From positions 1 through 45,145 of the forward strand of contig CATKHK010000155.1 of assembly GCA_949751835.1 (NCBI GenBank): a DNA stretch of 45,145 nt, read 5' to 3'. Origin of the DNA: Blepharisma japonicum. Lineage: Eukaryota; Ciliophora; Heterotrichea; Heterotrichida; Blepharismidae. The notes under the pieces were generated by a model that ran no database searches, was not told the origin of the DNA, and worked only from the letters and a program-made list of their open reading frames with translations. This document shows, in pieces, positions 2,500 to 33,829 of the stretch. The translations under genes were made by a program, and so were the position numbers. The number at the start of each line of letters is the position of its first letter. The first letter of the stretch is position 1.

Positions 2500-2790
2500 G
2501 AATCATCTTAATTTTATCAGAGACTTAGTGAGATTTATTCAAAATTTATATATTTTGAGCAATAATCTGTCTGATAATAGCTTAGCAGCTGTCAATACAA
2601 ACATATTTCAGTCTGGTAAGCCTTATATAAAAAAAAATTTGATCTTTGTTTTATCAGCAATAAGCAGATCTTTATGGATAGTTTTTATATCAGTAATTTA
2701 GTCTACATCGGCTTTTCTAGAGAAGCTATCTATTGATTATGTAAACCATTAAATGTTCTTGACTATATTATCCCATTATTATTATCATCA
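2500..2790 (+). pseudogene. SABATH methyltransferase relic A
   Basis: The plus strand aligns at DNA level, with many substitutions and stops, to the central part of SABATH-3 (minus strand, about 8060-7800). Matching stretches cover the segments for HNDLPDNNW, ESDESYIKIPDVYFSAIGRSFY, HIGFSSAAIHW and QPLSAPDHILP. For example, 2570-2590 corresponds to the NDLPDNN codons, and 2745-2775 to PLSAPDHILP. No reading frame survives. It is therefore a dead copy. The 3' third of the gene is absent; instead the sequence passes into the EF-hand-like relic, at the same junction as relic B. Confidence 0.75.
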
Positions 2791-2800
2791 TCCAATAGCC

Positions 2801-2936
2801 GTGAATCTTCAACTGATTTGAAAGCCAGAAAGCCCATCTAAATTACAATCTAGTTGTGTCAGCACTTTAAGAGCTTAATATAAAAATGCAAAATTATAAT
2901 TGCATTTACTTTTTGGAAGCAATTGCTTCTAGCCAT
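2801..2936 (+). pseudogene. EF-hand-like relic A (5' part only)
   Basis: This segment aligns with the minus-strand sequence at about 5690-5570, upstream of the EF-hand loop of relic B. A 16-nt block around 2857-2872 is identical in both, and a second near-identical block covers the codons for IASSH. Similarity stops before the Ca-binding loop. Both copies carry an in-frame TAA at the same place, so that stop is older than the duplication, or the coding region began after it. Confidence 0.6.
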
Positions 2937-3568
2937 CCTATAAAATTTTTCTAATTTTTTTAAAATTAAACTATATATATCTCTCTGAGCCAAGTGATAA
3001 GTACCTCAATTTTATAATAAAATTTATTCTTAGATTTGATAATCTGCTGCTCTTTCGAGAGCTCCATAAAGAATTTTTATTTAAATAGCATAATCTTTAT
3101 TTAAATTTAATAATATAATGAAAAATTAAAATAGAATTTATCAAAGACTTAAAACCATAGATCAGATATACGAAATAATTATATTTAAATAAAAACCATT
3201 AACTTTATTAATATAAGATTCTTTAATTATAAATTTTTGTTGAGTTCATTGAAAATTCACTCAAAGCAAAGCTCTTGCTTAGCTATAGAATAAATCTCAC
3301 TCCAGTATTATATTGGACAACCAAATAATTACCAAGTTTACTGGTGCTTATTTTACCGTAGAAGTAGACTTTGGTTATACAGATGAGACATTGGAGATGA
3401 AGGCTATGAGGAATGAGACGATGAAGATGAAGGGCACGAAAGTATGAAATAATAATGAAAATAAACAAAAAAGGTGAAAATATAAATTATATAAAAAAAT
3501 TGCTTCAAAGGCAAGAATCAGTATAAAAAGTATAGCTATACATTTGGAAAAAAATAAAATCAAATAGG
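2937..3568. other. AT-rich intergenic stretch
   Basis: Short open frames on the minus strand (3283-3468, 3375-3590) are low-complexity F/L/I-rich translations of AT-rich DNA with no paralogue or motif. No gene is supported. Confidence 0.5.
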
Positions 3569-3673
3569 AGCAGCGTTCACATTTTGACACTGCTTTTTGT
3601 TTATTTATTTCCTATAGTTCAAATTTGTATAGTGATTTTGATATTTTTGAGAAAATATTCTAAATCTTATTAA
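3569..3673 (+). pseudogene. 3'-end fragment of the PhoD-like phosphatase gene
   Basis: It encodes the last 34 codons of the PhoD-like protein (SSVHI..., hydrophobic segment, RKYSKSY, stop), matching the end of the gene at 9504-10670. About 100 bp before the SABATH start are identical between the two arms; differences appear only near the outer edge. Nothing of the rest of the phosphatase lies upstream, so this is a passenger of the duplication. It may persist because it overlaps the SABATH promoter, which in the right arm must also lie in this sequence. Confidence 0.85.
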
Positions 3674-3690
3674 AATCAATAATAATTTGC

Positions 3691-4734
3691 ATGAAATATA
3701 TTAAAAAATTAATGGAAACAGGAGGATTTGCACTTCAGAACTACAATACTTCTTCATCCCACCAAAGAAAAATTCTTATGGCAGCAAAAGATTCTTTTAC
3801 TGAAATTCTTAATCATACAAAAACAATTACAAATGGGACAGTTGTAATTGCAGACTATGGGTGCTCAGAAGGTAAAAACTCAATGGAATTTCTATTTTCC
3901 ACCCTCAAGGCGTTCAGGGAAAATTCATCTCAGCCAATATTTATTATTCATAATGACTTGCCTGAAAATGACTGAGTGAAAGCTTACAAAACGCTTTTGG
4001 AATCTCAAGAATCTTATATAAAAATCCCTGATGTTTATTTTTCAGCAATAGGAAGATCCTTTTATTCGCAAATTTTACCAAGTAATTCCTTGCATATTGG
4101 GTTTTCTTCAGTATCAATACATTGGCTGTCTCAGCCTTTGTGTGCTCCGGATCATGTTTATCCATCATCTTCAGAGGATTTAGGATTCCTAGAAATTGCT
4201 TCCAATGTAGCTCATAATGATTTAGTCACTTTTTTAAGACATAGGCATCAAGAATTAGTAGAATCAGGCAGACTGTTATTGCAATTCGCTGATCGTAATG
4301 ACAAAGATAACATCCTTACTATAGTTTTACAAACAGCTTGTGAAAACCTATTTAATAAAGGATTAATTACAGCTGAGGAAAAAAGAAATATAACGGTACC
4401 ACTGTATAGAAGAAGTAATGAAGAAGTTTTGAGAGCTTTAGATGAAGTTAGTGGATTATTTAGAGTGATTTCAGTTGATAGAATCAGGACTGAAAGAAAT
4501 CCTAATGAGACTGAAGAGGAAAGAAAAGAAAGTGTGGATCAAGTGCAAAAATTCGTCTGGAATATGATGAGAAATCCTATGTCTAAGGCTATAAAAAGGT
4601 CTGGAGAAAATTTTGAAGCCATTTTTCTAGAGTTTTCTAAAGAAGTAGATTGCCATGCTGAGTCCGCATATGCCCAATATTGCATATCAACTTATCATTC
4701 AATTGTTTTAGAAAAAATTAAATTAAATCCTTAA
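3691..4734 (+). CDS. SABATH-family methyltransferase 1
   Basis: A 347-residue protein, within the usual 330-380 range of the SABATH family (salicylate/jasmonate/IAA carboxyl methyltransferases and caffeine-pathway N-methyltransferases, Pfam Methyltransf_7). The SAM-site signature IADYGCSEGKNS corresponds to plant IADLGCSSGPNT. HNDLPENDW matches the plant LNDLPxND motif, SIHWLSQPLCAPDH matches the plant WLSQVP region, and RHQELVESGRLLLQF matches the R..EL..GG.m.l strand. TGA codes Trp at 3973-3975, where SABATH-2, -3 and -6 have TGG. The second Met (3712, METGGFA) aligns with the start of the paralogues and may be the true start. This is the plus-strand copy of the inverted repeat with SABATH-4. 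The substrate is unknown. The family transfers methyl from SAM to a small-molecule carboxyl or ring nitrogen, probably in the cytosol, as no signal peptide is visible. Confidence 0.9.
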
Positions 4735-4760
4735 TATAAGTGATATAAAAATTTTTTAGC

Positions 4761-5204
4761 TTCTAATATTTTTGATCTAATTAAATTAATTAAATTTATA
4801 TACCTTAATTACTGCTTGCCTTAAATGCTCTCTTTATGTCATTTATATTACACATTGGAATTCTAAGTTGGTTTCTCATGCGATTTGAAGATAGTCAAAA
4901 AGTTTTTTGCCATGCAAGATATAGCTTCTGCAGATATTCTGGAGTTTTTATTTATTTTTATCAAAGAGAAGATCAGTTAACTTTATAATCTGGCTCCATT
5001 TTGATTTTTCTCTTGGTAAAAAAATAGCACGATATACCACCCACCGGTATTTTCATTTCAACCGCTAAAGTACTCATATATTTTAATTATTTATAAATTA
5101 TAAAAGTGTGTTTTATTATTGGTGTTAATTCAAAACTTTATTAACCATTGTTATTAATTATTTATAAAGTTAGGATGCATCATTTATCGGATTCGAAAAA
5201 TATT
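4761..5204. other. AT-rich intergenic stretch
   Basis: No open frame or paralogous relic was recognised between the end of the left repeat arm and the EF-hand-like relic. Confidence 0.5.
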
Positions 5205-5695
5205 TTATATAGATAATTCTTCCTTTTGCATTATATCCATTTCCGAGAATTCCATATAAGTAAAATCATTCCCAAATATTATCCCTTGTCCAACCCAACT
5301 TTCTGACAGCAAAACTGAAGCTTTCAAGCCCAACACCTCATCTAAGTCATAGTCAAGATGTCTATAGGCGCATACCAGAGAAAAGGCAAAATAATCCGCA
5401 TTTCCGTTATCATCAGCATATTTCTCTTGAATTATTTTTAAAATGCGTGTGACCGGCTCTTCATCAACTATTTCTGTATTTTAAGGTTTTAGATAGCCAA
5501 TCCTCATTCATTTTTCAAGGAAAAGCATATTTATCTTGCCATCTCCATCAGTATCTAATTTAATTAAAAAATAATGGCTAGAAGCAATTTTAATCACGCT
5601 AAATTTTGAATTTTGCATTATCATCTTAAACTCTTAAAGTGCTGACGAGTTTGATATTAATTTATATGTCTTCTCATTTTCAAACCAGCTGAAGA
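5205..5695 (-). pseudogene. EF-hand-like gene, broken (relic B)
   Basis: From ATG 5624 the frame reads 47 codons, then TAA at 5481-5483, then 92 open codons to TAA at 5205. The part before the stop contains a canonical EF-hand loop, DTDGDGKIN, followed by MLFLEKW with a TGA Trp. The part after it has a weaker loop, DDNGNADYFAF. Upstream of ATG 5624 the same frame continues as SWFENEKTYKLISNSSAL and a TAA, which looks like older coding sequence. No 15-16 nt GT...AG intron can remove the TAA at 5481. EF-hand proteins bind Ca; the parent gene is not in the window. The long clean 3' half means a recently broken gene or an unusual short gene is also possible. Confidence 0.6.
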
Positions 5696-5699
5696 TTCT

Positions 5700-5985
5700 T
5701 TGCTGTCTGACGAGGATCGGATAATTTATTCGGAAGCATTCAATGGTTCAAATAATCGATGGATAGATGATGAGAAAAACCGATGTGGGCTCAATGACCA
5801 AGTAAAACATTATCCATGAAGATCGAAAAATAAAGGTCAAGGATTTTTATAAGACTCACCAGACTCAAATAGGTTTTATTTGACAGCTAACCAGCTATTA
5901 TCAGCAAATAATGATTTGAAATATGATAAATCCTGGATCAGTTTCACTAATATTGTGAAAGATATGCGGATTTTTTTCTTCAAAT
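5700..5985 (-). pseudogene. SABATH methyltransferase relic B
   Basis: The minus strand aligns to SABATH-3 from about the RKFREISSQP segment through HNDLPDNNW, NKTILESDESYIKIP, GFSSAAIHW and PLSAPDHILP, with scattered indels and stops. The frame is lost throughout. It ends at the same point as relic A and is fused to the same EF-hand-like sequence. It lies head-to-tail with SABATH-2, -3 and -4 on the minus strand. Confidence 0.8.
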
Positions 5986-6191
5986 TTTTCTAATTTGAAT
6001 TTAGTTAAAACTTACACGCAAATTTGCAAATTCTTAAAATTCCTCTCCAATATCAATAATAAATGCTTTGGGATGCAAACTAAATCAATTTTTAAGAAGC
6101 TTCTCTTCACATTATACAATGTACCTTTAAAATCTTTTGTGATAACTTTACTTAAATTTTAAATTAATTTCAAATAAAATATTTAAATTAT

Positions 6192-7202
6192 TTAATTTGC
6201 TATTTTTTCCAGCACAACTAAATGAAAAGTCGGGAAACTCGTAAATGGAATCTCGCCAATCACTCTCTCCACCTCTTTTTTATACTCATCTATTACATTT
6301 CCCACATCTTCTCTTTTCACCACTTTCTTTAAAATTGCTTCCAAATGTGAGCAAGCCAACGCTTTTAAGCTTTCATACAGCTCCTCTCTGTTTTCTTCAT
6401 TCGGTCTCCATTCATCATCAGCCTTCTTCCACTCTATAACTCTGTATAAGTTTCCAACCTCATCTAATGTTCTTCTCAATTCTTCATCATTTCTGGCATA
6501 TACAGGAATTGTCACATTTCGCTTTTCTTCCTCATTTATGATGCCTTTCGCATACATATTTTCGTTGACTGTTTGCAATATTACTGAAGGAAAAAGGTTT
6601 CCAATGGAATCCGTAGGAAAAACTATGAGGAGTCGACCGGAGGGGACTAGCTCTTTATGACGGAGGGTTAATAGGCTGACAAGATAATTGTGGGCTACTT
6701 CTGAGGCTTGGGATTTGAGTGCGAGATCGGAAGAGGAGGAAACGAAAATGTGGTCAAATGCACCAATGGGGCGGGGGAGGAAGTGGAAAGCAAGGGCGGC
6801 GAGGCCAATGTGGACTGAGTTATTAGGAAAGATTTGCTGATTGAAGGAGCGGCCAAGTCCTGAGTAGTAAACATTTGGGATATTTAGGTAGGATTCTGGA
6901 GCTTGCAAGACAGTTTTAAAAGTCTCACCCCAATTATTTTCAGGTAAATCATTATGGACAATCATAATTGGCCTGTCTGAATATTCTCTGAATCTTGGCA
7001 AAGTTTGATTAAAGAATAAAACTGAGTTGTAGCCTTCCGCAGATCCGTAGTCAGCAATAACGATATTTCCAGTAGAAATTTCGCTAATATGTCTAATGGA
7101 ATCTCCAAAAGGCTCAATTAGCTTCATTAAAGCTCTCCTTTGGTTACTTGAAACTAGATTATACCCTTTAATTGCGCATAACCCAGACATTTTATTTTTC
7201 AA
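6192..7202 (-). CDS. SABATH-family methyltransferase 2 (divergent)
   Basis: A 336-residue intact frame without internal TGA. The SAM-site motif IADYGSAEGYNS and HNDLPENNW are kept, as are GRSFNQQIFP, RHKELVPSGRLLIVF and GIINEEEKRNVTIPVYARNDEE. It differs from its neighbours in the substrate-pocket region: where they have SSxxIHWLSQPLSAPDH it has AALAFHFLPRPIGAFDH, so the aromatic Trp is Phe. The N-terminus also differs (MSGLCAIKGYN instead of MATGGFALxNYN). The Met at residue 5 may be the true start. Its start lies 33 bp from the stop of SABATH-3 on the same strand. It is likely a paralogue with altered substrate preference; conservation of the SAM motif argues against loss of function. Confidence 0.9.
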   Translation of the reverse strand: MKNKMSGLCAIKGYNLVSSNQRRALMKLIEPFGDSIRHISEISTGNIVIADYGSAEGYNSVLFFNQTLPRFREYSDRPIMIVHNDLPENNWGETFKTVLQAPESYLNIPNVYYSGLGRSFNQQIFPNNSVHIGLAALAFHFLPRPIGAFDHIFVSSSSDLALKSQASEVAHNYLVSLLTLRHKELVPSGRLLIVFPTDSIGNLFPSVILQTVNENMYAKGIINEEEKRNVTIPVYARNDEELRRTLDEVGNLYRVIEWKKADDEWRPNEENREELYESLKALACSHLEAILKKVVKREDVGNVIDEYKKEVERVIGEIPFTSFPTFHLVVLEKIAN

Positions 7203-7235
7203 GATATATATACTAGTAATAACTTACTTAAACTT

Positions 7236-8255
7236 TTATTCTCTTGCGATTTTTTCCAGCACAATCGAATGATAGCTCGACAAAGAATTCCTCACATCAA
7301 TGCTCTCAAATACCTCACATGCCTCCTTTGCAAAAGCCTCAAAAATTCTCTCAAACTCTTCACTATCCCTCTTTATCGCTCTCTGCAAAGGTGTCCTCAT
7401 CATGCCAGGTCCATACTTCTTGACCTGCTCCACAACTTCTCTCAAATGTTCATCAGAAACCCCTTCAAACCTTTTTGCTTCTATTTTTTCTATTGAAATT
7501 ACCCTAAACAAGCCTTCAACCTCTTCTAACACCTTTTGGATTTCTTCATTACTTCTCCTATAAATCGGCATTGTCAAGTCTCTTTTTTCTTCTTCTGTAA
7601 TTAAGCCTCTGGCTAATAAATTAATAGAGACTTGCTGCATTACAGTACTTGCTAAGCTTGAGTTATTATTAGAATCAGCAAATTGTATGAGCAAACGGCC
7701 ATTATTTACTAATTCTTTATGCCTGTTATATAGAAAAGTAATTAAGTCTCTATGGGCAAGTTCTGAGGCTATAGCTTTAAAGGCAAGGTCGTTGGAAGAG
7801 GATGGGAGAATATGGTCAGGAGCACTTAAAGGCTGAGATAGCCAATGGATAGCTGCTGAGGAAAAACCGATATGGACGGAATTATTAGGCAAAATCTGAT
7901 CATAAAAGGACCTACCTATAGCTGAAAAATAAACATCAGGAATTTTTATATATGATTCATCAGACTCCAATATGGTTTTATTGGCTGCGACCCAGTTATT
8001 GTCAGGCAGGTCATTGTGAAAGATGTGAATGGGCTGGGACGAAATTTCTCTAAATTTCTGAAGAGTTCTGCTAAGAAAGACCATGGAGTTGTAGACTTCA
8101 GAAGACCCATAGTCAGCGATTGCTATGGTGCCATTTGTGAGGGTTGGAGAAAAATTGAGAATCTCGCTAAAAGTTTGTGTAGCTTTGAGGAGCATTTTTC
8201 TCTGTTGGGCTGAAGATTCATTGTAGTTTGGGAGAGCAAAGCCACCTGTCGCCAT
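7236..8255 (-). CDS. SABATH-family methyltransferase 3
   Basis: A 339-residue intact frame starting MATGGFALPNYNESS. SAM-site IADYGSSEVYNS lies at about residues 46-57, HNDLPDNNW at 80-88 and the pocket segment AIHWLSQPLSAPDH at 135-148, followed by RHKELVNNGRLLIQF and GLITEEEKRDLTMPIYRRSNEE. Both diagnostic Trp residues use TGG here, which calibrates the TGA codons of the paralogues. Both relics (2500-2790 and 5700-5985) align best with this copy. It is followed 33 bp later by SABATH-2 and preceded 187 bp upstream by SABATH-4, all on the minus strand. No intron or signal peptide is visible. Confidence 0.9.
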   Translation of the reverse strand: MATGGFALPNYNESSAQQRKMLLKATQTFSEILNFSPTLTNGTIAIADYGSSEVYNSMVFLSRTLQKFREISSQPIHIFHNDLPDNNWVAANKTILESDESYIKIPDVYFSAIGRSFYDQILPNNSVHIGFSSAAIHWLSQPLSAPDHILPSSSNDLAFKAIASELAHRDLITFLYNRHKELVNNGRLLIQFADSNNNSSLASTVMQQVSINLLARGLITEEEKRDLTMPIYRRSNEEIQKVLEEVEGLFRVISIEKIEAKRFEGVSDEHLREVVEQVKKYGPGMMRTPLQRAIKRDSEEFERIFEAFAKEACEVFESIDVRNSLSSYHSIVLEKIARE

Positions 8256-8417
8256 TGTCTTTATTATTAATTTGGATGATTAATAGTTTATTTTTGTGGA
8301 GACGTCATTAATTAAATTATGATTAATTATTAATTGAAAGAAAGGAGAATAATTGTGACTATGGAGAAGAAATATTTAAGAAATTGATAGGTTTGTCTGT
8401 GGAGATTAATATTTTAA

Positions 8418-9608
8418 TTAAAAAATTTTTATAGCATTTATATTAAGGATTTAATTTAATTTTTTCTAATACAATTGAATGATAAGTTGCTATACAATAT
8501 TGGGCATATGCAGACTCAGCACAGCAATCTACTTCTTTAGAAAACTCTAGAAAAATGGCTTCAAAATTTTCTCCAGACCTTTTTATAGCCTTAGACATAG
8601 GATTTCTCATCATATTCCAGACGAATTTTTTCACTTGATCCACACTTTCTTTTCTTTCCTCTTCAGTCTCATTAGTGTTTCTTTCAGTCCTTATTCTATC
8701 AAGTGAAATCACTCTAAATAATCCACTAACTTCATCTAAAGCTCTCAAAACTTCTTCATTACTTCTTCTATACATTGGTAACGTTATATTTCTTTTTTCT
8801 TCAGCTGTAATTAATCCTTTATTAAATAGGCTTTCACAAGCTGTTTGCAAAATTATAGTAAGGATGTTATCTTTGTCATTACGATCACCGAATTGCAATA
8901 ACAGTCTGCCTGATTCTACTAATTCTTGATGCCTATGTCTTAAAAAAGTAACTAAGTCATTATGAGCTACATTGGAAGCAATTTCTAGGAATCCTAAATC
9001 CTCTGAAGATGATGGAAAAACATGATCCGGAGCACACAAAGGCTGAGACAGTCAATGTATTGAGGCTGAAGAAAACCCAATGTGCAAGGAATTATTCGAT
9101 AAAATCTGTGAATAAAAGGATCTCCCTATTGCTGAAAAATAAACATCAGGGATTTTTATATAGGATTCTTGAGATTCCAAAAGCGTTTTGTAAGCTTTCA
9201 CTCAGTCATTTTCAGGTAAATCATTATGAATAATAAATACTGGTTGAGATGAATTTTTCCTGAACGCCTTGAGGGTGGAAAATAAAAATTCCATTGAGTT
9301 TTTGCCTTCTGAGCACCCATAATCTGCAATTACAACTGTCCCATTTGTAATTGTTTTTGTATTATTAAGAATTTCAGTAAAAGAATCTTTTGCTGCCATA
9401 AGAATTTTTCTTTGATGGGATGAAGAAGTATTGTAGTTCTGAAGTGCAAATCCTCCTGTTTCCATTAATTTTTTAATATTTTTCATGCAAATTATTATTG
9501 ATTTTAATAAGATTTAGAATATTTTCTCAAAAATATCAAAATCACTATACAAATTTGAACTATAGGAAATAAATAAACAAAAACCATTGCCAAAATGTGA
9601 ACGCTGCT
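8418..9608 (-). repeat. Right arm of the large inverted repeat (SABATH-4)
   Basis: Reverse-complement match to 3569-4760. This arm is the probable source, because here the PhoD-like 3' end is joined to its complete gene while in the left arm it is only a fragment. Confidence 0.9.
8443..9486 (-). CDS. SABATH-family methyltransferase 4
   Basis: A 347-residue frame containing two TGA Trp codons: 9202-9204 in HNDLPENDW and 9052-9054 in SIHWLSQPL. SABATH-1, its inverted-repeat twin, has TGG at the second site, a direct TGG/TGA swap at a conserved residue. SAM motif IADYGCSEGKNS and the other family motifs are intact. The alternative start METGGFA at 9465 aligns with the paralogues. The stop of the upstream PhoD-like gene at 9504 is only 17 bp from the first ATG, so promoter elements must overlap that gene's 3' coding end. 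Substrate unknown; predicted cytosolic. Confidence 0.9.
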
Positions 9609-10670
9609 TCTATAAGTCTCGCTTTTTTCGCACAAATAGCTCTTCTTTGATTTGCTATACAGCTCATCTATGCTTGTCTTTTCTAATAGCAAATATTTCC
9701 CCTCAGAATCTCTTATAGCCATCTCAATATTTCCAGAATCCCAGTCTACCTCAATTGTCCCAAAATTAAATTCCAATATCCTCGGCCCAATATTATAAGT
9801 AAAGCTCATGATTCCATAAGCAGGAATCCATACCAAAGGTCCAAATGTAGTAAAAACCGTATGGGTCATCCCGCTTGATGTGATCTCATAAATCGGGAAA
9901 TTCTCACATGTGTTTTTAAGAATTTCTCCCATATGGACATCACCAGATAATAAAATAACTCCAGGGGTTTTATTTAATAAATCGAGAAGTTTCTTGAAAG
10001 ATTTTCTGTGTCATCTTTCAGTTTTTATTCATCTTTCTTGGGAGTTTATTTGGAGCCCATTTCCTAGGATTGTGATATCTCCAGGGTTGTTTAGCTCATT
10101 TTCAAGCCATTTTCATTGGTCTTCTCCTAGTGAATCTCCTTCTAAGTCTCACTTATTGTCTCGAAAGGACCTTATGTCAACTAAGATTATTTTAATTGAT
10201 TTTCCTTTTTGTCCAAATGTATAACTATCATAAATTCCTTCATGCCTGAGCCTTTTGCTATTTTCTTCCTCCAAAAATTCCAAATATAGTATTTTCGCTT
10301 CACTTTTTAAATGAAAAGTTTTGTCCCCATCATTTATCCCATAATCATGATCGTCTCATACCCCAGTTAGCATTGTGGTATTTCTAAGCTCCTTATACCC
10401 AGGATTTTCTTTTAAATTATCATAAAGCTGCTTTCACGAGCTTAAATTTCTTGGATATGAGGCAATATAAAAATAGGGAATATCTGCATATACAGAATCT
10501 CCAAGCCAAATGTAAAGGTCTGGGGATCAATTTGTGATGGAATAAAAGATTTTAGGGTTGGGAGGTCTGTTATGATGATGACAAGAGCCAAAAGCAATTT
10601 TTGAGAGTGTTTTAGACTCATCTATAGGGAGGGAAAAGGCTATTGGAATTAATAGTAAAAATGGTCACAT
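9504..10670 (-). CDS. PhoD-like metallophosphatase, membrane-anchored
   Basis: A 388-residue frame with eight TGA Trp codons, the highest use seen here among complete genes (including residues 2, 48, 79 and 105). It starts with a short signal peptide (MWPFLLLIPIAFSLP). Metallophosphatase motifs follow in order: FGSC near residue 28, WLGDSVYAD at 55-63, VWDDHDYG at 104-111, LGNGLQ, and LSGDVHMGE at about 241-249 with the metal-binding His. These match the PhoD/alkaline phosphatase D-like branch of calcineurin-type phosphoesterases, which hydrolyse phosphomonoesters or diesters. A hydrophobic segment near the C-terminus (about residues 355-378) followed by RKYSKSY predicts a type I anchor with the catalytic domain in the secretory lumen or outside the cell. 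No introns. Its 3' end was copied into the left repeat arm at 3569-3673. Confidence 0.9.
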
Positions 10671-11188
10671 TATATTGCGAACACGTAAGCGAAATGATAA
10701 AAACTTATGAAATTTGGGATTTTTTATTAAATACTAGAAAGAAAAGTTGCAGCACTGGGGAGGATTTTTTATCCTATTAGTGTATAAATTGTAAAATTCT
10801 ATAGATTCTTTCAGATTAAAAATTTTAAATTTTGATGGGAAGAAATCAGAAGATAGAAGAACCATAGCTAATGCACAGCTTTCAAAAGGATTAATTCTTT
10901 GTTTTAGGCTTAAATTACATATTTTATAGCGACTGCTATGATAAATTTAAGCAGATAGGCATCTTGATGAGAATTTCAAAAGAAAAATTCGAACAATAAG
11001 ACAAAGTTGTGAAATATTTTTATTAAAATAAATGGTAGAGTAGAAAGAAATATTCTGGCATGAAGATAAGATTTATCATAATTAAGTTATAAGGTTAATA
11101 CTAATAAAATAGGGGGAAAAATATAATTTCATAAAAATGAAAAATTCCTTACCTATAGCAAGAATTAGTAAATTTTATTTATTACTAA
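10671..11188. other. AT-rich intergenic stretch
   Basis: No supported coding sequence. It contains the 5' flank of the PhoD-like gene and the 3' flank of SABATH-5. Confidence 0.5.
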
Positions 11189-12187
11189 TTAAAGTTTCTC
11201 AAGAACTATTGAATAATAGCTGGAAATGCTATTTTCAAAGTCTGTCCTATCTACAATATCTTCAATTTCTTTTTCTGCGAACCCATATATCCTGTCAACC
11301 TCTGCTTGACTTTTGGTAATTGCCCTTTCGAGAGGAGTTTTCATACTAACAGTCGCGAACTTTTTGATATGCTCAATATATTGTCTTGAGGCTCTACCTG
11401 GTGCCCGTGGCATATCTACACTTTTCGACTCTAACACTCTAAAATAATCACTGACTTCATCCAAAGCTCTCTTTATTTCTTCTGAGCTTCTTCTGTACAT
11501 TGGAATTGTTAAATTCCTTTTTTCCTCTTCATTGATAATTCCTTTAGAAAAAAGGTTCTCACTGGCTTCTTGCCAAATATTACTAATTAAGCTCTCGTGA
11601 TTTCGATCAGCGAATTGGAGAAGTAATCGACCTGAAGGAACAAGCTCTTTATATCTTAGCTTTAGGATAGAGACTAAATCTTTATGGGCATGCTCAGAAG
11701 CTAAGGTAAGAAATTCTGGATCTTCAGAGGCTGAAGGGATAATATGGTCTGGAGCGCTTAATGGTTCTGAGAGCCAGTGAATTGCTGATGAAGAAAACCC
11801 GATGTGAACTGTTTTTTCTGGAAGAATTTGCTCGTAGAAGGATAAGCCAATAGCTGAGAAGAAAGTGTTTGGGATTTTCCTGTAAGATTCGTGAGAGTCC
11901 ACAATTGTTTTAAACGCTTTCATTCAGTTGTTGTCAGGCAAGTCGTTATGAATTATATATATTGGCTGTTGAGAGCTTTCTCTGAATCTTTGTAAAATGC
12001 TAGTTAAAAAGACCATGGAATTGTAAACTTCCGATGAGCCATAGTCCGCTATAACAATTGTTCCATTTTCTGTTTCTTTTGCATAGTTTAAGCTGTCATA
12101 AAGAGTTTCAGTCGCCTTTAGAAGAACTCTTCTTTGATATGATGATGACTCGTTGTAGCTTTGAAAAGCAAATCCACCGGCTGCCAT
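11189..12187 (-). CDS. SABATH-family methyltransferase 5
   Basis: A 332-residue frame starting MAAGGFAFQSYNESS. TGA codes Trp at 11924-11926 in HNDLPDNNW, where SABATH-6 has TGG; conversely the Trp of AIHWLSEPLSAPDH is TGG here and TGA in SABATH-6. Motifs IADYGSSEVYNS, GLSFYEQILP, RYKELVPSGRLLLQFADRN and GIINEEEKRNLTIPMYRRSSEE are all present. It is a close sister of SABATH-6, of identical length, separated from it by 3.15 kb that includes a broken J-domain gene. The two form a subgroup distinct from SABATH-1 to -4 (SEPLSAPDH rather than SQPL). Confidence 0.9.
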
Positions 12188-14156
12188 TTATTTATTATAA
12201 ATTGAAAAAAAACTTTCTAAAGAAATCCATATCTGAACGAAAATGAAAGACTTAAATAGCTAAATTTTTTTTCTCACAAGGTATAAATAGCAAGAAGCTA
12301 AAAAATTTAGCTTATCGTTTAAATAAAAATTATTATATTTAAAGCAGTAGGTTTCTGTTGACAAAATTCTAAGCAGTTCCTTTTCAAAAAGGTCAGCAAA
12401 TTAATAAAAATTTAAATTTCATGTGACTGATAAACTTCAGTGAAAAGTACCTTTTATAAATTTGTGGAGTTGAATTATCATAAAGAACTGATTTCTTTTA
12501 TTTTGCTTACAAAAAACCCACAAGATGACATTCGGAGACACCATAAGTTAGATTCATTTTGGATTGGTTTTAATTCATAATATTTATAAAACCTAAAATA
12601 ATGAGCCTGCCTTTTACTCGAGAATTATTATGTTTAAAATAAAAGCTAAGCAGTTCATGAAATTTTAAATTTTTAATTGTTATAGCTTGAAGGTATTTTT
12701 CGATATGAAAATTCCAACCAGTAAACTTTGGATTTAAGCTTAATCGAAGCTAAAATATTTTTGATATGCTATAATTATAGCAAATTGAAAATAAAATACA
12801 CAAAGCTCTATTAGGTAACCATTTTACAGATTAAAGTTCCCATAATCATGTGTTGACAAAATTTTTTAACTCACTTAGAAATGGCAACTAGCATTGCTTT
12901 AACTCATAATAAAAAATTAGATATGCCATAAATTATTATTTGCTTATCTTCTAGACACAGATTATTACATTTTTATTCTATTTTTATAAAAATACCTAAA
13001 TATTATAATAATTTTTAAAAGGAATCCCACCTAGGCTAGCTGTAAGGTAAATACTTTCTAATATTTTAAAAATTATATAAAGGCTTTGGGAGAAAGCAAT
13101 GCTCCTTGAAATATATACTGACTTTTTCCATATTATCCTAAATTATTTAATTTTTATAATAAAGCATCTTTTTTCAAAAAAAGCCTGAATACTTAATATG
13201 GCTATAGAAACTGTAATATAATTTCTAAATTGGCTTAAATTAGGTTTTTTACATGAAATAATGGGAATTAATATAAATTATATCATAATTTTTATTTTTA
13301 GCATAAGTTTTATGATAAAAATCCTTTTTTCACTAGATAATGCCACAACAAACCAAATTCTGCAGTTTTATTTAAATACCAAATGTTTTATATTATGATA
13401 ATTTTATAACACAGAGTCTACTTACCTGGATAAATAATTTTACTCAATTCAAAACCCCTATTTAAAATGATAAAAATTGAATGATAAGAAGAAAAAGTTC
13501 ATAAATTTGATTTTGAAATTTTAGAGCAGACTTATGCCATAAGCAATGCCATTTCTCTTATTTTTACTATATTTTAGGTATTCCCTCAAAATTTTATTTT
13601 CAACAAAAGTGTACCATTAGTTACAGATTGATGAACTCTCTAGAAGTGAACCTATTTTCAAGAATTAAATAGGTGTTTGCTCTATTTTTGAAGTCTAAGG
13701 ATCAAAAATGGGCTTCTAGGAATAAAACATCATTTAAGGCTATATGCGAAAGGAATGGAGAATTAAAATATTGATAAAACTATTATTCTATGGCAGTTTG
13801 TTAATCTTGAAATTAACTCTATAGTTATTTTCAAATAAATACCATAAGGCCAAACAATTCTATAGCCGCATAGAAAGCTCAATATATAACCAATAATTAT
13901 TTAATTAAAATAAGTCTTCAAATAAATATAGAAATCAAAATGGCAATTAAAATTAGAACAATATAATTGAAGTTAATTGATAGTTTCTAAAGCCTATATT
14001 GTGCTAAATAAATTTTACTAATTTTCCCTAGTTTTAATTAGGATGGGAGCAGAACAGAATTACTTAAGACTTTCTACTACAAACTCCCTTAACAAGGTAA
14101 GAAAACCAAGTTTTTAATATTAAATTTCTTTAGCTTTTTATTATTTAAGCCCGCCA
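12188..14156. other. Long AT-rich gene-free stretch
   Basis: About 2 kb with stops in all frames even with TGA read as Trp. I found no relic of a window gene and no repeat array. It is unusually long for a heterotrich macronuclear chromosome. Confidence 0.5.
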
Positions 14157-14775
14157 TTAGCCATGAGCTTGTCTATATCCTTTAATAATCGCGTAAAACC
14201 CCATGTACTTGCAAAATTCTTGTTTTGCCCAATCTTGTCTTTCTGGATTTTTATCAGGGTGATATTCCAAAGCCTACTCCCTTTTCTTAGTTTCAACATC
14301 TTGATCGCTTGATGATTCACTCAGCTTAAAGGCTTTAAGAGCTGCATCGTATACATCTTTTTTTAAGAGAAGAGCTGTCTTCATCTCTTACTGCAACGGC
14401 TGTACTTCTTGACGATATATACTTCCCAACTTTATAGCCTGCAAATGCACCAATACCTGCTCCTATTGCTGTTCCAATCCCAGGACAAATGAGAGAACCT
14501 ATTACTGCACCAAGGCTTAGTCCTACTACGCCACAGGTAAGCCCTGCTGCTTCTTGATTAAGCAGAGATAAGGCTTCTCACCCTGTAATAGATCCCATGA
14601 ATCATCTTGCCAGGGTTTGTGCACATTGAAAAAGCACGTTTGTGAACAAAGAACTGAAGGGATCACTATAGATGCTTACATTTCTAGTTGTATTAGCTTT
14701 AACAACTGCTGTCGTAGATGCTATTATCCCATCGATTGCTTGGCATCGCTTTTTGGATGGCTGCTCTCTTTCCAT
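14157..14775 (-). pseudogene. Broken J-domain protein with glycine-zipper segment
   Basis: From ATG 14775 the frame gives about 140 codons, including two TGA Trp and a glycine-zipper hydrophobic stretch (GLTCGVVGLSLGAVIG then GTAIGAGIGAFAGYKVGKYI), typical of membrane-inserting Gly-rich segments. A frameshift near 14370-14390 is needed to continue into DVYDAALKAFKLSESSSDQDVETKKRE. Then comes an in-frame TAG, then ALEYHPDKNPERQDWAKQEF, the HPD motif of a DnaJ J-domain, ending at TAA 14157. The J-domain is also too short just before HPD (the usual YRxLA is missing). No 15-16 nt GT...AG intron repairs either lesion. J-domains stimulate Hsp70 ATPase; this copy is probably dead. Confidence 0.7.
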
Positions 14776-15341
14776 GGCTATTATTTAATAGGGTTAAAAT
14801 TGATTTCTATAATTTTATTATTATAATTAGAAATAGTTTTCAGATTTTGTTTATTAATGTGTAAGAAATTAAGATATAAATTAAAGAAATAATCATTTTG
14901 GAAATAAATATAATTAAATTGATAAGATAAGTTCATATAAGTATGAATAAATAGTTGAAGTTAGAGTATAACTCTGGTTTTAATAAAAATATAAGTTAAT
15001 AAATTAGATATTTAAAATAAATATTAAATCAGCTAAAGCTATCGATTTAAATGAGTCTGAAATATTTCCATATAGAAATTAAGGAAATAAAATTAAATAT
15101 TTCTCTTAAAAATTTAGTCTATTGGCGCGAGATTTACAATAAGATTTTTATCAATAATTAAAGAGTTTTGCTTATTTATATATCTACAGAGTTGTTTTAT
15201 GACAGATTAAAGTATTGAAACAAATGAACCAAGAAATTAAAATAATTAATGAAAAAAATTAGAATTAAAAAATATTCATAAAATTCGTGATTTATTATTT
15301 TCAATTAATAATTTCAGATTTATTTTAAGACCATAATTGTT
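14776..15341. other. AT-rich intergenic stretch
   Basis: No coding sequence supported. It lies upstream of the J-domain relic and downstream of SABATH-6. Confidence 0.5.
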
Positions 15342-16340
15342 TTAAAGTTTCTCAAGAATTATTGAATAATAGCTGGAAGTGCTATTTTCAAAGTCCGTCC
15401 TATCTACAATGTCTTCAATTTCTTTTTCTGCAAACTCAAAAATCCTATCCACCTCCGCCTGTCCTTTAGTAATTGCTCTTGCAAGAGGAGTTTTCATGCT
15501 TACTGCTGCGAATTTTTTGATATGCTCAATATATTGTCTTGAGGCTCTGCCTGGAGTCCTTGGCATGTCTACACTTTTAGATTCTAGCACTCTATAATAA
15601 CCATGAACTTCATCTAAAGCGCTTTGTATTTCTTCAGCGCTGCGTCTGTACATTGGAATTGTTAAATCCCTTTTTTCCTCTTCATTGATAATTCCTTTAG
15701 AAAATAGGTTTTCACTGGCTTCTTGCCAAATGTTACTGATTAAGCTTTCATGGGTTCTATCGGCAAATTGAAGTAATAGCCGGCCTGAAGGGACAAGTTC
15801 TTTATATCTAAGCTTTAAGATGGAGACCAAATCTTTGTGAGCATGCTCAGAAGCTAATGCAATAAATTCTGGATCTTCAGAGGCTGAAGGGATAATATGG
15901 TCTGGAGCGCTTAATGGCTCTGAGAGTCAATGAATTGCTGATGAAGAAAATCCGATATGAACTGTTTCTTCTGGAAGAATTTGCTCATAAAACGATAAAC
16001 CTATAGCCGAAAAGAAAGTGTTTGAGACTCTCCTATAGGATTCATTAGAGTCGACAATCGTTTTAAACACTTTTATCCAGTTGTTGTCAGGCAAGTCATT
16101 ATGAACTATATATATTGGCTGCTGAGAGCTTTCTCTGAATCTCTGCAAAATATTACTTAAAAAGACCATGGAATTATACACTTCTGATGAACCATAATCA
16201 GCGATTGTAATAACTCCCTTTTCAATTTCTTTTATATAGTTTAAACCGTCAAAAAGGGCATCAGTCGCCTTTAAAAGGATTCTTCTTTGGTATGAAGAAG
16301 ATTCGTTGTAACTTTGGAAAGCAAATCCGCCAGCAGCCAT
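15342..16340 (-). CDS. SABATH-family methyltransferase 6
   Basis: A 332-residue frame starting MAAGGFAFQSYNESS, with one TGA Trp at 15927-15929 (AIHWLSEPLSAPDH). IADYGSSEVYNS, HNDLPDNNW, GLSFYEQILP, RYKELVPSGRLLLQFADR and GIINEEEKRDLTIPMYRRSAEE are intact. It is the nearest relative of SABATH-5, with the same length and differences scattered over the whole protein. A SAM-dependent methyltransferase of small molecules is the family role; the acceptor is unknown. It is the rightmost member of the cluster. Confidence 0.9.
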
Positions 16341-17279: not shown

Positions 17280-18458
17280 TTATTGATAAGCTGAAACCAG
17301 AAGCAAAATAGTCCAAACACTCATCGGAATTGCACAAATCAAATACATAAACAGATACACCTTTGAGATGTTATCTACTTGATTTTTATGAATCACACAA
17401 ATCATAAGCAGTTGTAGCGATGTAGGAGATGCAAAAGTTACACCTACCATGATTACCATAACGCGGTTCTATATAAATTTTACAACTACTCCAGCCCAAT
17501 ATAAAGGAAAAAGCATTGCAGCCCCAAAAATAGGCATGACGACCATTTTGCCAACCATAATCAAATTTAAGCAGGTCCTATGTAAAAATTACCAGCTAAT
17601 ATCTGCTTCTGGTGGGTATCCTTGGCTTAAGTTTGATCCAAGCATAAGGTTTATGATGGGTGAAGCGCACGCTCCAATGCTGGTCATGGCTGCGAATAAG
17701 TTGTTCTTAAACACAGCTCCAGACCCTGCAAAAACATACTCCTTCATGTATGGGATCAAGGCTAAAGGCACTGACACCAAAGTTGCATAAATTGGAGGAT
17801 TTAAGGTCTTTTTGATTTTCCAAAGCCATGAATTTTCGTTTACTTTACTTGTCCCATTACGACTATCACTTTCCAATAGCTCAATTTCATTGGTATTTTT
17901 TGGAGTAATTGCTGGCTTCATCATCCTTCATAATCCTTACCCATAAGCAAAAGTCCACTTATAAACAGTAATAAACACTGTATAAATAAGCACTATCTCG
18001 GTAGCCTTATTTTTAAAATGATGGTCTGGCTTGGTGATTGAATTGTTCCCCAGTACTGATGCATAAACCAAAGGAATTGCAGTTGTGTCTTGAAAAGCGA
18101 TGCAAGCCTTCATGAGTTTGGCTAATTCTGTGTCTGCGTGGGTGAGTTTCCCAAAAAGCCATCCCACTCCATAGCCTATAAAAATGTGAACTAAATAGCC
18201 CTTACGTGAACAAAATACAAATAGCAAGCCAAATTCACCCATTTGGCTGACACTGAACTCATTTATCATTTCACAGAACAGCAAACATGGCAAAATGACC
18301 CATAGGGTCACTTTTGACATTGTCTCTGTGCCGGATTTTGAAAGTCACTGAATGATTTATACCCCTTTGCGTGTTATAAAGATCCCTGCAGAGGCCTCAG
18401 CGATTATAATAAGGGCACCATCAATAGCAACGATAATTGAATCAGTGACTATGGACAT
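17280..18458 (-). CDS. Auxin-efflux-carrier (AEC/PIN-like) transporter with four 15-nt introns
   Basis: Removing introns at 18348-18362, 17926-17940, 17578-17592 and 17469-17483 gives a continuous frame of 372 residues from ATG 18458 to TAA 17280. The product is strongly hydrophobic: an N-terminal half with MSIVTDSIIVAIDGALIIIA and ITRKGW, then LWVILPCLLF, a hydrophilic loop (PAITPKNTNEIELLESDSRNGTSKVNENSW), and a C-terminal half ending MVIMVGVTFASPTSLQLLMICVIHKNQ. The two-bundle layout with a central loop, the IGACASPIINLMLGSNL segment and the SPTSLQ motif fit the auxin efflux carrier family (Pfam Mem_trans), found across eukaryotes including non-plants. TGA codes Trp right after intron 1. 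The substrate is unknown; some family members sit in the ER. Each intron restores frame or removes an in-frame TAA/TAG. Confidence 0.85.
17469..17483 (-). other. 15-nt intron 4 of the AEC-type gene
   Basis: GTAAAATTTATATAG on the minus strand. It lies between codons and removes the in-frame TAG at its own 3' end. A at position 10. Confidence 0.85.
17578..17592 (-). other. 15-nt intron 3 of the AEC-type gene
   Basis: GTAATTTTTACATAG on the minus strand. It splits a Trp codon (TG|G) and removes an in-frame TAA. A at position 10. Confidence 0.85.
17926..17940 (-). other. 15-nt intron 2 of the AEC-type gene
   Basis: GTAAGGATTATGAAG on the minus strand. It splits a Gly codon and removes an in-frame TAA. 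A at position 10. Confidence 0.85.
18348..18362 (-). other. 15-nt intron 1 of the AEC-type gene
   Basis: GTATAAATCATTCAG on the minus strand. It sits between complete codons (GGG and TGA) and removes an in-frame TAA. A at position 10. Confidence 0.85.
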
Positions 18459-19315
18459 ATATTTTTATACCATTATTCAAAGTTATTTTTATTATCTTCA
18501 ATTAAATTGATGCCATTTTCTTCAACCATTTCATCGCTGTTGCATTAATATGAATGTTGAATTATTTCTCCCAGCTAAAATGATGCAATTAATAAAAAAA
18601 GGCTTCATGCGAGGCGTATTTATTTAAAAAATTTAAGAATTATCTCTCATTTAAGAATTAATGAAAAAATTGGAATATAAACTTTATTAAATTGAGTTAC
18701 TATTTTTGAATTTAAAATGCTTTCTTTGTTGACTTTTGAACTAATTATTTGTCCTTTGCAAAATTTCTTAAAAAATGGTAAAGAGAATTGTGAAATTTAG
18801 GGAATTTGATATAAAATAATTTTTGCTTATAAATATGCTGTCTACTTCAGAAAATCAGCCAATATAAATTAAATCATTGATATTGACTCTCTGGTTGTGT
18901 GTTTAGATGCTATTCAAAAATTCGAGCTTACTATAATATTTATTGCATTTTTATGTTCTGCTGCTTTGTTATATTATTGAATATATAAATTACTTTAATA
19001 TAAAAATACTTTAAAATAATTTAATTGAGTATTCTGATCAAAAATTATTTAAATTTAACCCTATTAAAGCTAAAAATTTAGCCATTTTCAAATAATTATC
19101 TCACAATAGTTTCAAGACTGTTAATATAAACGAAAGAATACCAATTTTACGTGAATTTTGTCTTATATTGATATAGTTAAGCCTACAACAGCAAAAACTA
19201 ATATTAAATATAAAATGTTTTGGCTCAGCAATAGCTTGCTTAGGCATTTCTAATAGTGCAATTTCTCTTTATATTCAAGAGTCTTAGAATTAACATAATA
19301 TTTTAAATCTAATTA
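18459..19315. other. AT-rich intergenic stretch
   Basis: No coding sequence recognised. Confidence 0.5.
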
Positions 19316-20041
19316 TCAATCGATTTCACCCATATCAATTGAACACATTGCTTCGGAGTGGTAAATCCCGCAATCGTTATCACTTTCTTCTTCACAGAGC
19401 CATTCAGATCTCTTTACAATGCTTTCCAATTTTTCACAATTCAGATGCAATGAATTATTTTCCATTGATTTTGCAATATCTTGAAGGTAATTAATTTGAC
19501 TTAAATAATCCATCACTTCTACTCTATAGCTGTAGCTTATGATATTCAGGTACTCGATTTCCATTAGCTGAATATCAATTAAGCAGAAACCTTCTATATT
19601 TTTGTAGTCTGAGGCAGAAATAAAGGCATTATCTGAGATTCTCTGTGCTACTAATGTAGACATGAGCAATATATTTTTTCAGTTGCTGCTCATTAGTGGG
19701 ATATTTGAGTATAGCATGAATTTTTTAATGTACACTGCTGTCAATATTAAGCATTCAGCACTAAATTTAAATTCTTTGTTCAAATATATGATGAATTCCG
19801 AGATTTCTTGGATGCTCACAGCATTGTAGCTTTGCGAGCTATCTTGATAGGAAAAGTATTCACTTTCGGGTATCTTTTCAGGGCTTGCGATTCAATTGTT
19901 ATCACGCAATTGCTGGAAGAAATTTTCAATATCCAGATATAGAGCCCTTGCAATAGAAGAGGTCAAACCTATGACATCAGGATTTCTTGAACTTAGCCAT
20001 AGGGAAGAAGTTGAAGGTGAGCCAGTAGCTTTTGAGGTCAT
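19316..20041 (-). CDS. P-type (Pho80-like) cyclin 1
   Basis: A 241-residue frame from ATG 20041, with two internal TGA Trp codons (NNWIASPEK and SSNWKNILL). The middle has the P/U-type cyclin-box pattern: EISEFIIYLNKEFKFSAECLILTAVYIKKF, then NWKNILLMSTLVAQRISDNAFISASDYKNIEGF, then LMEIEYLNIISYSYRV. These correspond to the Pho80 segments ..AIYYIDR.., ..LTA..VA.K..D....N..YA.IGG.. and ..LE..FL..V.Y... The tail is acidic with SEWLCEEESDNDCGIYHSEAMCSIDM. P-type cyclins bind Cdk partners (Pho85/Cdk5-like); no kinase partner can be assigned from the window. Closely related to cyclin 2. Confidence 0.8.
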
Positions 20042-22100: not shown

Positions 22101-22847
22101 TTAGTAATCTATTTCGTCTATGTCAATGGAATACATTGCTTCAGAGTGATAAATGCCACAATCACTATCGCTTTCCTCTTCAGACAGCCACTTTGATCTT
22201 TTTATAATGTTTTCCAGTTTTTCATTATCTAAATGTCACGAGTTGCCTTTGAAAGATTTTGAAATGTCTTGAAGGTAATTAATTTGATACGAATACTCTA
22301 TGGCTTCTAATTTATAGTCGTAGTTTATTATATTGAGAAACTCTATTTCCATTAATCTAATATCTTCTAGGCTGAAGCCTATGATATTTTTGTAATCTGA
22401 AGCGGAAATAATAGCATTATCAGAGGTTCTTTGTGCTATCAATGAAGAAGTAAGTAGTATATTTTTTCAATTACCACTCATTAGTGGAATTTTTGAGTAT
22501 GCTAAAAATTTTTTAATGTATACCATAGTCAAAACAAAGCATTCTTTACTGAATTTGAATTCTTTATACAGAGTCTGAATAAATTCTGAGATTTCTTCAA
22601 AATCTACTGATCTTGCTAATTTTTCGTCATTACAACAATCGGGAATATCTTGAAAGGAGAAATAATCACTTTCAGGGATGTTTTCTAGATTCTTAAGTCT
22701 AGGGTTAATTCTTTGTTCTTGGCAGAAATATTCGATTTCCATGTACAGAGCTCTTGAAATCGAATAGATTAGATTGAGGGTTTCAGGTGCTCGTGCGCTT
22801 ATCCATTGGGCGGAATTTAGAGCTGAGTTAATTGTTTTCGAGATCAT
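22101..22847 (-). CDS. P-type (Pho80-like) cyclin 2
   Basis: A 248-residue frame from ATG 22847 with TGA Trp codons in SGNWKNILL and NSWHLDNEK. Cyclin-box segments EISEFIQTLYKEFKFSKECFVLTMVYIKKF, IAQRTSDNAIISASDYKNIIGF and LMEIEFLNIINYDYKLE align position by position with cyclin 1. The tail KWLSEEESDSDCGIYHSEAMYSIDIDEID is also shared. The acidic DCGIYHSEA tail is conserved between paralogues, so it is likely functional. It duplicated together with cyclin 1, with the cyclin-3-type relic lying between them. Confidence 0.8.
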
Positions 22848-25025: not shown

Positions 25026-25721
25026 TTAAATGGTATTTATGCAGTATATTGTTTCTGAAGCATAAATATTTACTTCATTCTCATCTTCTTGTGGGATTTC
25101 TTTGGATTTATCTGCAACTTTTCCTAGACTTTTCTCATCAATTTTCCAATTTTTATATGAATCTGATGGAAAATATCCAAGAATTGACTCAGCAATTTTT
25201 ATTAATTCCTCTTTGTCAACTTCGTAATTATATTCAATTATTTCCTTAAATTCAAAATCCATCATAATCAAATCAACAAATTCAATATCAGGAATAATCT
25301 CAGCAAATTCTGAGCTACCTAATTCATTTCTTTCACTTATTTTTTGGGAATTTAAAATGGAAAATGCTACAAGTTTTCTCCAATTGGAGCATAATAAAGG
25401 AAGCTTTGACATCGCCTTTTCTAGATATGCAGCTGCCAAAATCCATGTTTCTATAGTAAATTTTAAATTATCTGAAAGATAGCAAAGATAATCATGAATG
25501 CTTGATTGGCATGGAATATCTTTTGCTGTCGAAGAAGAATACATGAACATTTCTTCATTGCCGAAAAAATATTCAAATTCTGACAGCTGTGGCTTGGCTT
25601 TCTGATATGCACTTTCTTTTATTTGAGCTCTTAATTTGAGTGAGAATGCCTGCAAAAAGTCATTAACACTAGGAATCTGGGAAATCACTGCTTGACTGGC
25701 TAATATAAGATCTTCTTTCAT
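25026..25721 (-). CDS. Divergent P-type cyclin 3
   Basis: A 231-residue intact frame. It shows a weaker form of the cyclin-box pattern: SIHDYLCYLSDNLKFTIETWILAAAYLEKAMSKLPLLCSNWRKLVAFSILNSQKISE, then FAEIIPDIEFVDLIMMDFEFKEIIEYNYEVDKEELIKIAESI. The CSNWRKL segment corresponds to SSNWKNIL in cyclins 1 and 2. The tail ends IYASETIYCINTI, comparable to IYHSEAMCSIDM. It is the parent type of the relic at 20980-21540. All Trp codons are TGG. Likely a Cdk regulator by homology; divergence makes this less certain than for cyclins 1 and 2. Confidence 0.65.
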   Translation of the reverse strand: MKEDLILASQAVISQIPSVNDFLQAFSLKLRAQIKESAYQKAKPQLSEFEYFFGNEEMFMYSSSTAKDIPCQSSIHDYLCYLSDNLKFTIETWILAAAYLEKAMSKLPLLCSNWRKLVAFSILNSQKISERNELGSSEFAEIIPDIEFVDLIMMDFEFKEIIEYNYEVDKEELIKIAESILGYFPSDSYKNWKIDEKSLGKVADKSKEIPQEDENEVNIYASETIYCINTI

Positions 25722-30343: not shown

Positions 30344-31576
30344 TTAAATATCAATTTCATTGATAGAGGCTATTATAACTGTAATATCATCTTTCTTCCC
30401 ACCAATAAATTGTTTCCCTGTATATTTAGAGCTTTCCAAGCTAAATGGTGTCTCATTCTGGCTACTCATTCGTTTTTTTGCTTCAGAAACAAGCCTTTCT
30501 GCTACGCTTTTGAGGTCATTTTTATTCTCTTCATAAGATTTTTTCACAATTGCAAAAATTTCCTCAGTAAATAAATTATCCCACAGTCCATCAGTCCCAA
30601 TAACCAAAATGTCACCTTTTTTTATATGAATACTGTAATTGTCAGCGTCAGAAATTTCGTCGGAAGAAATTTCTTTTGGAATATATTTAATATTTTTTGA
30701 AGAGGTAATTATTTGGGAATTTGTAAAACTTTTAGAAAGTTGATATGGACAATTGAAGAAATGCTGCTTTGGGGATGCTTTAAAAATTATTTCTATATCA
30801 GAGTAACCTTTCCTAAGAATAATCACTGAAGAATCCCCCAAGTTTGATATTCGAAGATGGGAGCCTTGCAAAGTTATTAGAAGAAAAGTCGAACTTCCTC
30901 CATTAATTACTTGTGAATACGATTGAGAAATAATTTGCTCCCCATTCAAAGGGCCATGCAGATAACTTTTCAGTTTCTTTGATATGATTTCAAAAGCAGA
31001 GTCATATTTGTCTACAACTCTTTTGCATTTTTCCATTAATTCATGAGAAAATGCTGAGCTTGAAATTCCGAAATCCCTCTTGATCCCTCCAACTCCGTCT
31101 GCAACACCTAATGCAAACCTTGAAAAAAAATAAGCATCTTCATTATTTTCAGAATTTTTACCTTGAGAAATGCACTTGGTTTTAAATTGGAATTTTGTTG
31201 TTTGGGGTTTTAAAGAAGGTCTTGGTGGCCTTAAATAATTCACTAAAGTCCCTTTCAAGTTATTTCTTTTCGGATAATCATTAACTAGTATTTTACTTCC
31301 CTTTTTAATCAGCAAAAATTCTGAACCCTGAGGAAGTCATATTTCGATGAAGTATTCTTTGTATTTTAAAGAATAAGACAAAGGAATCTCAACTTCTCAT
31401 TGAGGATTCGTATGAGAGCCAATGAGATAAACAGGCTCAATTGCAATTTCCTTTTGCAAAGAAATTCTTGTTAAAATTTTATTGTTTCGTTTTTGACACA
31501 TAGAGTAGTATTTATATATAGCCTTTCTCAAACGATTGAAAAGTTCTGAAAAAATCAGTTTTTCTTCGATATTCAT
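30344..31576 (-). CDS. PP2C-family protein phosphatase 1 (PTC7-like ADGVGG type)
   Basis: A 410-residue frame with two TGA Trp codons (HTNPQW and IEIWLPQG) where the tandem paralogue has TGG. Residues 1-120 form a shared N-terminal region (EEKLIFSELFNRLR, ISLQKE, PVYLIGSHTNPQW, LPQGSEFLL) that I cannot assign. The PP2C domain follows: NEDAYFFSRFALGVADGVGG, GSSTFLLITLQGSHLRISNLGDSSVIILRKG, DILVIGTDGLWDNLF and KDDITVIIASI. These are the metal-coordinating Asp motifs of PPM phosphatases, which dephosphorylate Ser/Thr with Mn/Mg. I chose Met 31576 because similarity to the paralogue starts there; an upstream ATG at 31633 is in frame but its extension is not conserved. Confidence 0.88.
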
Positions 31577-33808: not shown

Positions 33809-33829
33809 TTCAATAAGATTTATTACCAT

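Follow-up and report, generated by a model that had tools for sequence, protein, structure and literature searches.

The 45,145-nucleotide contig C155 of Blepharisma japonicum, which was analyzed over its full length and is called the window below, belongs to a genome of 45.2 Mb in 224 contigs. It contains a tandem cluster of genes that appear to encode S-adenosylmethionine (SAM)-dependent methyltransferases of the Methyltransf_7 (SABATH) family. Read with genetic code 4 and with the stop codon included, six frames between positions 3691 and 16340 are full length and intact, with products of 332-347 amino acids (aa). They are accompanied by two broken copies (Table 1). The original prediction, made from the sequence alone, had proposed six intact genes and two relics within 14 kb, and the code 4 frames together with blastn and tblastn searches confirm this count.

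All six proteins matched the Pfam family PF03492 (Methyltransf_7) with 92.4-139.8 bits, compared with a Pfam cut-off of 29.8. In the Pfam scan of the six proteins no other family reached its own cut-off, and an NCBIfam scan of the same proteins gave nothing above a cut-off; a better-scoring rival methyltransferase family was thus not found. A profile of the six proteins matched FAMT, the mycobacterial fatty acid O-methyltransferase, at E 4.9e-36 and the plant enzyme SAMT at 2.3e-20, plus eight further plant SABATH sequences. The predicted structure of gene 1 fits solved members of the family, and that of gene 2 was predicted with a pLDDT of 90.9 and a pTM of 0.90. Membership among proteins like the juvenile hormone acid methyltransferase (JHAMT) was considered and dropped, the fold match being weak. 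The assignment to Methyltransf_7/SABATH therefore stands. When the core regions were scored, 19 of 20 paralogues gave a higher value with FAMT than with any of six plant cores; a very divergent copy on contig C13 did not. The cluster proteins are nearer to FAMT than to the plant SABATHs in both sequence and fold.

Table 1. Methyltransferase genes, relics and duplicated segments in the window.
Feature	Position	Strand	Length (aa)	PF03492 (bits)	Remarks
Gene 1, Methyltransf_7 enzyme	3691-4734	+	347		putative daughter copy of gene 4
Gene 2, divergent Methyltransf_7 enzyme	6192-7190	-	332	92.4	Phe at SAMT W151 site
Gene 3, Methyltransf_7 enzyme	7236-8255	-	339	109.8	
Gene 4, Methyltransf_7 enzyme	8443-9486	-	347	130.7	putative parent of gene 1
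Gene 5, Methyltransf_7 enzyme	11189-12187	-	332	119.2	
Gene 6, Methyltransf_7 enzyme	15342-16340	-	332	121.0	paired with gene 5
Relic 1, frame broken, nearest gene 3	2525-2936	+			blastn to gene 3 3.8e-21; tblastn 1.2e-7
Relic 2, frame broken, nearest gene 3	5574-5950	-			blastn to gene 3 3.6e-15; tblastn 4.9e-5
Arm A, inverted segmental duplication	3564-4758	+			95.9% identical over 1195 nt to 8419-9613; starts with PhoD-like 3' end fragment
Arm B, inverted duplication, putative parent	8419-9613	-			gene 4 and end of intact PhoD-like gene
PhoD-like phosphatase gene, upstream of gene 4	9504-10670	-			PF09423 38.4 bits, cut-off 27; marks duplication direction

Positions in the active site were taken from an alignment and are given in SAMT numbering. 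The residues D57, N65, D98, S129 and F130, which we take to be the SAM-site residues of SAMT, are present in all six window proteins. Together with the fit of the gene 1 model to solved members, this bears out the SAM pocket that had been proposed. The WLSQP motif fared less uniformly: the region is recognisable, but genes 5 and 6 carry WLSEP in its place and gene 2 carries FLPRP. Q25 and W151 are presumably the carboxylate anchors. The former occurs in 6/6 window proteins and the latter in 5/6, with Phe in gene 2; among 20 aligned paralogues the Q25 site is Gln in 17, and the W151 site is Trp in 12, Phe in 3 and Tyr in 3. Y147 and W226, by our assumption the aromatic walls of the salicylate pocket, are found in six and four of the six plant rows, respectively, and in none of the window proteins. 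Genes 1 to 6 have V, L, A, A, S, S at the first of these sites and T, S, S, T, S, S at the second. We infer from these sequences that the pocket is more open than in plant SAMT. The SAMT M150 site is His in all six window proteins, in 17 of the 20 paralogues and in 13 of 47 bacterial rows. Counted from the alignment, it corresponds to the site mutated in FAMT Q154A, a mutant named in a PDB title. In an ancestral plant enzyme, the exchange H150M converts a preference for benzoate to one for salicylate, according to an excerpt of PMC10853004.

The cluster bears the marks of repeated duplication and decay. Arms A and B, which are inverted relative to each other, carry genes 1 and 4, respectively, and gene 1 seems to have been copied from gene 4 in reverse orientation. 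Gene 4 is the probable parent because the arm of gene 1 starts with an orphan 3' piece of the PhoD-like gene (3564-3677, 96%), while that gene is intact beside gene 4. The two relics are an inverted repeat of each other flanking gene 1 (68.5% over 413 columns), and this repeat is old. In the tblastn controls for the relics, the best value in the rest of the window, with the six genes set aside, was 0.082 and that in reversed sequence 0.40; the reversed-sequence control covers tblastn, not blastn. A profile search at E 0.01 recovered relic 1 (1.2e-6, with matches within 2465-2838). Relic 2 was not recovered in this search, which weighs against its being real. Judged from all of these comparisons, both relics are real.

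For ten gene pairs, dN and dS were measured by the Nei-Gojobori method. Three young pairs include window genes, namely genes 1 and 4 (dS 0.119, dN/dS 0.197), genes 5 and 6 (dS 0.742, dN/dS 0.079), and gene 3 with its closest kin, a dispersed copy on contig C134 that is 80% identical over 332 columns (dS 0.831, dN/dS 0.138). Outside the window, a pair on contig C15 gave dS 0.267 and dN/dS 0.315, and the closest pair on contig C5 gave dS 0.174 and dN/dS 0.095. The synonymous excess is significant in all five of these pairs (Fisher p 3e-7 to 1e-42). No interpretation is given for the pairs 1/3, 1/5 and 2/C15, in which saturation is complete or almost complete. Genes 1, 3, 4, 5 and 6 are under purifying selection. 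The tree agrees with the three subgroups that had been recognised: the pair 1/4 joins gene 3 (93/78, with the C134 copy included), genes 5 and 6 group together (100/100), and gene 2 stands apart in a weak group (90/72) with copies from C5 and C15. Taken together, the inverted copying of gene 4, the selection on the three young pairs and the decayed relics support birth-and-death evolution, as the original prediction had put it. Allelic doubling was considered as the origin of the copy count and rejected, with the flanking PhoD-like gene examined rather than the cluster itself. This gene has no second copy above 67% besides the fragment next to gene 1, and the closest measured gene pair (dS 0.12) lies on one contig.

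The family extends well beyond the window. At least 23 matches were found in the genome, 22 of them above the cut-off. The window and a 13-kb stretch of C5 account for six each, C15 for two, and nine further contigs for one apiece. The copies on C5 form a second tandem cluster at about 267.6-280.7 kb (L014:3126-7190 and L015:870-7236), which comprises five frames of full length, a copy with a frameshift and several fragments. For the frameshift, an explanation by a tiny intron was rejected, the single candidate tested yielding no long frame. The same explanation was dropped for a split copy on C18 (L017); no 15-16-nt GT..AG stretch in the region tested yields a long frame there. The divergent copy on C13 (L018:2000-3127) is without most of the motif residues, and its Arg/Ser-rich N-terminus resembles, by eye, a mitochondrial targeting signal.

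Reading of the six genes relies on TGA as a Trp codon. They contain 5 TGA and 12 TGG codons in total, and all six end in TAA. A GT..AG intron of 15 nt lies at 17926-17940, and a scan of the window gave 11 candidate introns of 15-16 nt that join frames, compared with 1 in the reversed sequence. An excerpt of the Blepharisma stoltei genome paper (PMC9942806) describes TGA as Trp and introns mostly of 15-16 bp. The ciliate host that had been deduced from the sequence is borne out by the TGA usage, the TAA stops and the excess of tiny introns, and the agreement with B. stoltei makes a Blepharisma-like host a sound conclusion.

A Pfam scan of ten neighbour proteins identified TPR, PhoD, glycine zipper, two cyclins, TauE, kinase, PP2C, exocyst-like and GH1 proteins. 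The small glycine-zipper protein (PF13488) is encoded at 14335-14775 between genes 5 and 6. Cyclin-like paralogues lie in tandem at 19313-20041, 22101-22847 and 25026-25721; the first two match Pfam cyclin models, and the third was recognised by eye. The genes at 30344-31633 and 32570-33829 are close tandem paralogues, a further local duplication, and the second of them matches Pfam PP2C. Two glycosidase genes follow in tandem at 38610-40088 and 40144-41717. The first matches Pfam GH1, while the second was identified by eye and is split over two frames. For this second gene a first intron test gave nothing, and the later scan of the whole window gave candidates.

A scan of genome contigs for relatives found 73 bacterial loci, of which, by record title, about 40 are mycobacterial, 12 alphaproteobacterial and 9 acidobacterial. 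A viral scan returned 30 stretches that fitted a pattern, and none of these was confirmed. Matches above the cut-off were rare in four phylum samples (4/398, 1/247, 1/240 and 9/296 genomes, each count including the centre genome). The relationships were analyzed in two unrooted trees, calculated with six plant rows over the core region, with no other protist and with several rows of deviant amino-acid composition. The first tree (73 rows, 47 of them bacterial) supported the bacteria at 98/98, the plants at 100/99 and the ciliates at 84/36. After removal of four long rows (46 bacterial rows, 230 columns) the values were 89/87, 100/100 and 100/98, respectively. A ciliate branch nested in the plants or in the sampled bacteria was seen in neither tree. 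On this sampling the ciliate proteins form a branch of their own, the third besides those of the included plants and bacteria. Old descent and old transfer are indistinguishable here because the trees are unrooted, contain six plant core rows and no other protist, and include the rows of deviant composition. The original prediction had leaned on plant chemistry; the scores in favor of FAMT, the position outside the plants and the replacement of both pocket walls in all six proteins speak against this.

We consider it probable that the cluster codes for functional SAM-dependent methyltransferases belonging to the Methyltransf_7 (SABATH/FAMT) superfamily. Their most likely reaction is the transfer of a methyl group to the carboxyl group of small acids. 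The products would be methyl esters. Because the pocket seems more open than in SAMT, a larger or aliphatic acid is a likelier substrate than a small aromatic one, and the copies may differ in the substrates they accept. The genes would multiply by tandem, inverted and dispersed duplication, with purifying selection maintaining some copies and others decaying. Several points weigh against this interpretation. Over the aligned fold, the identity with the 13 solved entries of the family is 19-25%, too low for a transfer of substrate, and some plant members methylate nitrogen, according to their PDB titles. The roles given to Q25, W151, Y147 and W226 are our assumption from the SAMT structure. 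Gln at the Q25 site is not universal, since it occurs in 33 of the 47 bacterial rows. Gene 2 is without the Trp anchor, and its sole measured pair is saturated, with infinite dS.

The nitrogen-methylating members suggest an alternative in which the ciliate proteins would be N-methyltransferases of the same kind as the caffeine and theacrine enzymes, with purine-like or other nitrogen-containing compounds as substrates. We regard this as quite unlikely: Gln25, presumably a carboxylate anchor, is kept throughout the cluster, Tyr147 of the plant rows is gone, and the plant N-methyltransferases fall inside the plant branch, with the ciliate proteins outside it. Furthermore, the His at the SAMT M150 site is shared with some of the bacterial rows and with the ancestral benzoate-preferring plant enzyme described in the excerpt of PMC10853004. 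The original prediction had also raised aromatic and tryptophan-derived chemistry of heterotrichs. Methylation of small acids of this kind, for example in the gamone 2 pathway or in pigments, would suit a Blepharisma-like host, and Blepharisma produces the tryptophan-derived gamone 2 (excerpt of PMC9942806). However, an excerpt of PMC10892320 gives gamone 2 as 3-(2'-formylamino-5'-hydroxybenzoyl) lactate, a compound that lacks a methyl ester and occurs commonly in Blepharisma species. For this reason it fits poorly with a fast-changing methyl-ester cluster, and a role in gamone 2 synthesis is unlikely. Both aromatic pocket walls are replaced in the window proteins, and the ten scanned neighbour proteins do not resemble a biosynthetic set. 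Heterotrich aromatic chemistry as a whole thus appears decidedly improbable as an explanation, and the results lend no support to a substrate resembling salicylate or a gamone.

Other alternatives concern the origin and the state of the genes. The closeness to FAMT, together with the rare and patchy spread in the sampled bacteria, which transfers can yield, would agree with a fairly recent bacterial transfer rather than old descent or old transfer. We consider this unlikely: in the unrooted trees the ciliates are not nested in the sampled bacteria, and the genes are AT-rich and use the ciliate code, as expected for long residence. There is a very small chance that the copies mostly drift or have no enzyme function, so that the cluster is duplication noise. 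The relics in the window and the frameshifted copy and fragments on C5 would agree with such decay; against it stand the three young pairs, whose dN/dS lies between 0.08 and 0.20 in a test that does not extend to gene 2, and the complete set of SAM-site residues in 6/6 proteins.

Most known SABATH enzymes come from plants, in which they modulate hormones and scents. In addition to the carboxyl methylation that we favor, a third, independent SABATH/FAMT radiation is conceivable, in which enzymes with a remodelled open pocket turn larger or lipid-like acids into varied methyl esters that serve in defence or as diffusible signals, parallel to land plants. We offer this extension tentatively, as a possibility that is more probably wrong than right. 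What is new is a separate ciliate branch of a known family, in which the pocket is altered and genes are arranged in two tandem clusters. The separate branch, the second cluster and the changed pocket suggest that such expansion is not confined to plants. The ciliate branch can also serve as an outgroup to the enzymes of plants and bacteria, and it points to a new methyl-ester chemistry in a single-celled eukaryote. Among the matches listed for open-licence literature, viewed as titles and beginnings of abstracts, none concerned SABATH or Methyltransf_7 in ciliates, which does not show that such a report is absent from print.

Of the known systems, the insect JHAMT (7ebx, named by its PDB title) is likewise SAM-dependent and acts on a lipid acid. 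The plant SABATHs, represented by SAMT (1m6e), loganic acid MT (6c8r), IAMT (3b5i) and the caffeine enzymes (2efj, 2eg5 and 6lyh), score below FAMT against the ciliate family and form a long branch of their own, and their Y147 and W226 are gone from the six window proteins. FAMT (PDB 5f2k, 5f2n and 5f2o) is also on a branch separate from the ciliate proteins; its Q154 is replaced in them by His, and its Trp at SAMT position 147 by V, L, A or S. The copy number differs as well: 11 of 12 bacterial genomes compared have one match and the remaining one has two, in contrast to the large family in the ciliate.
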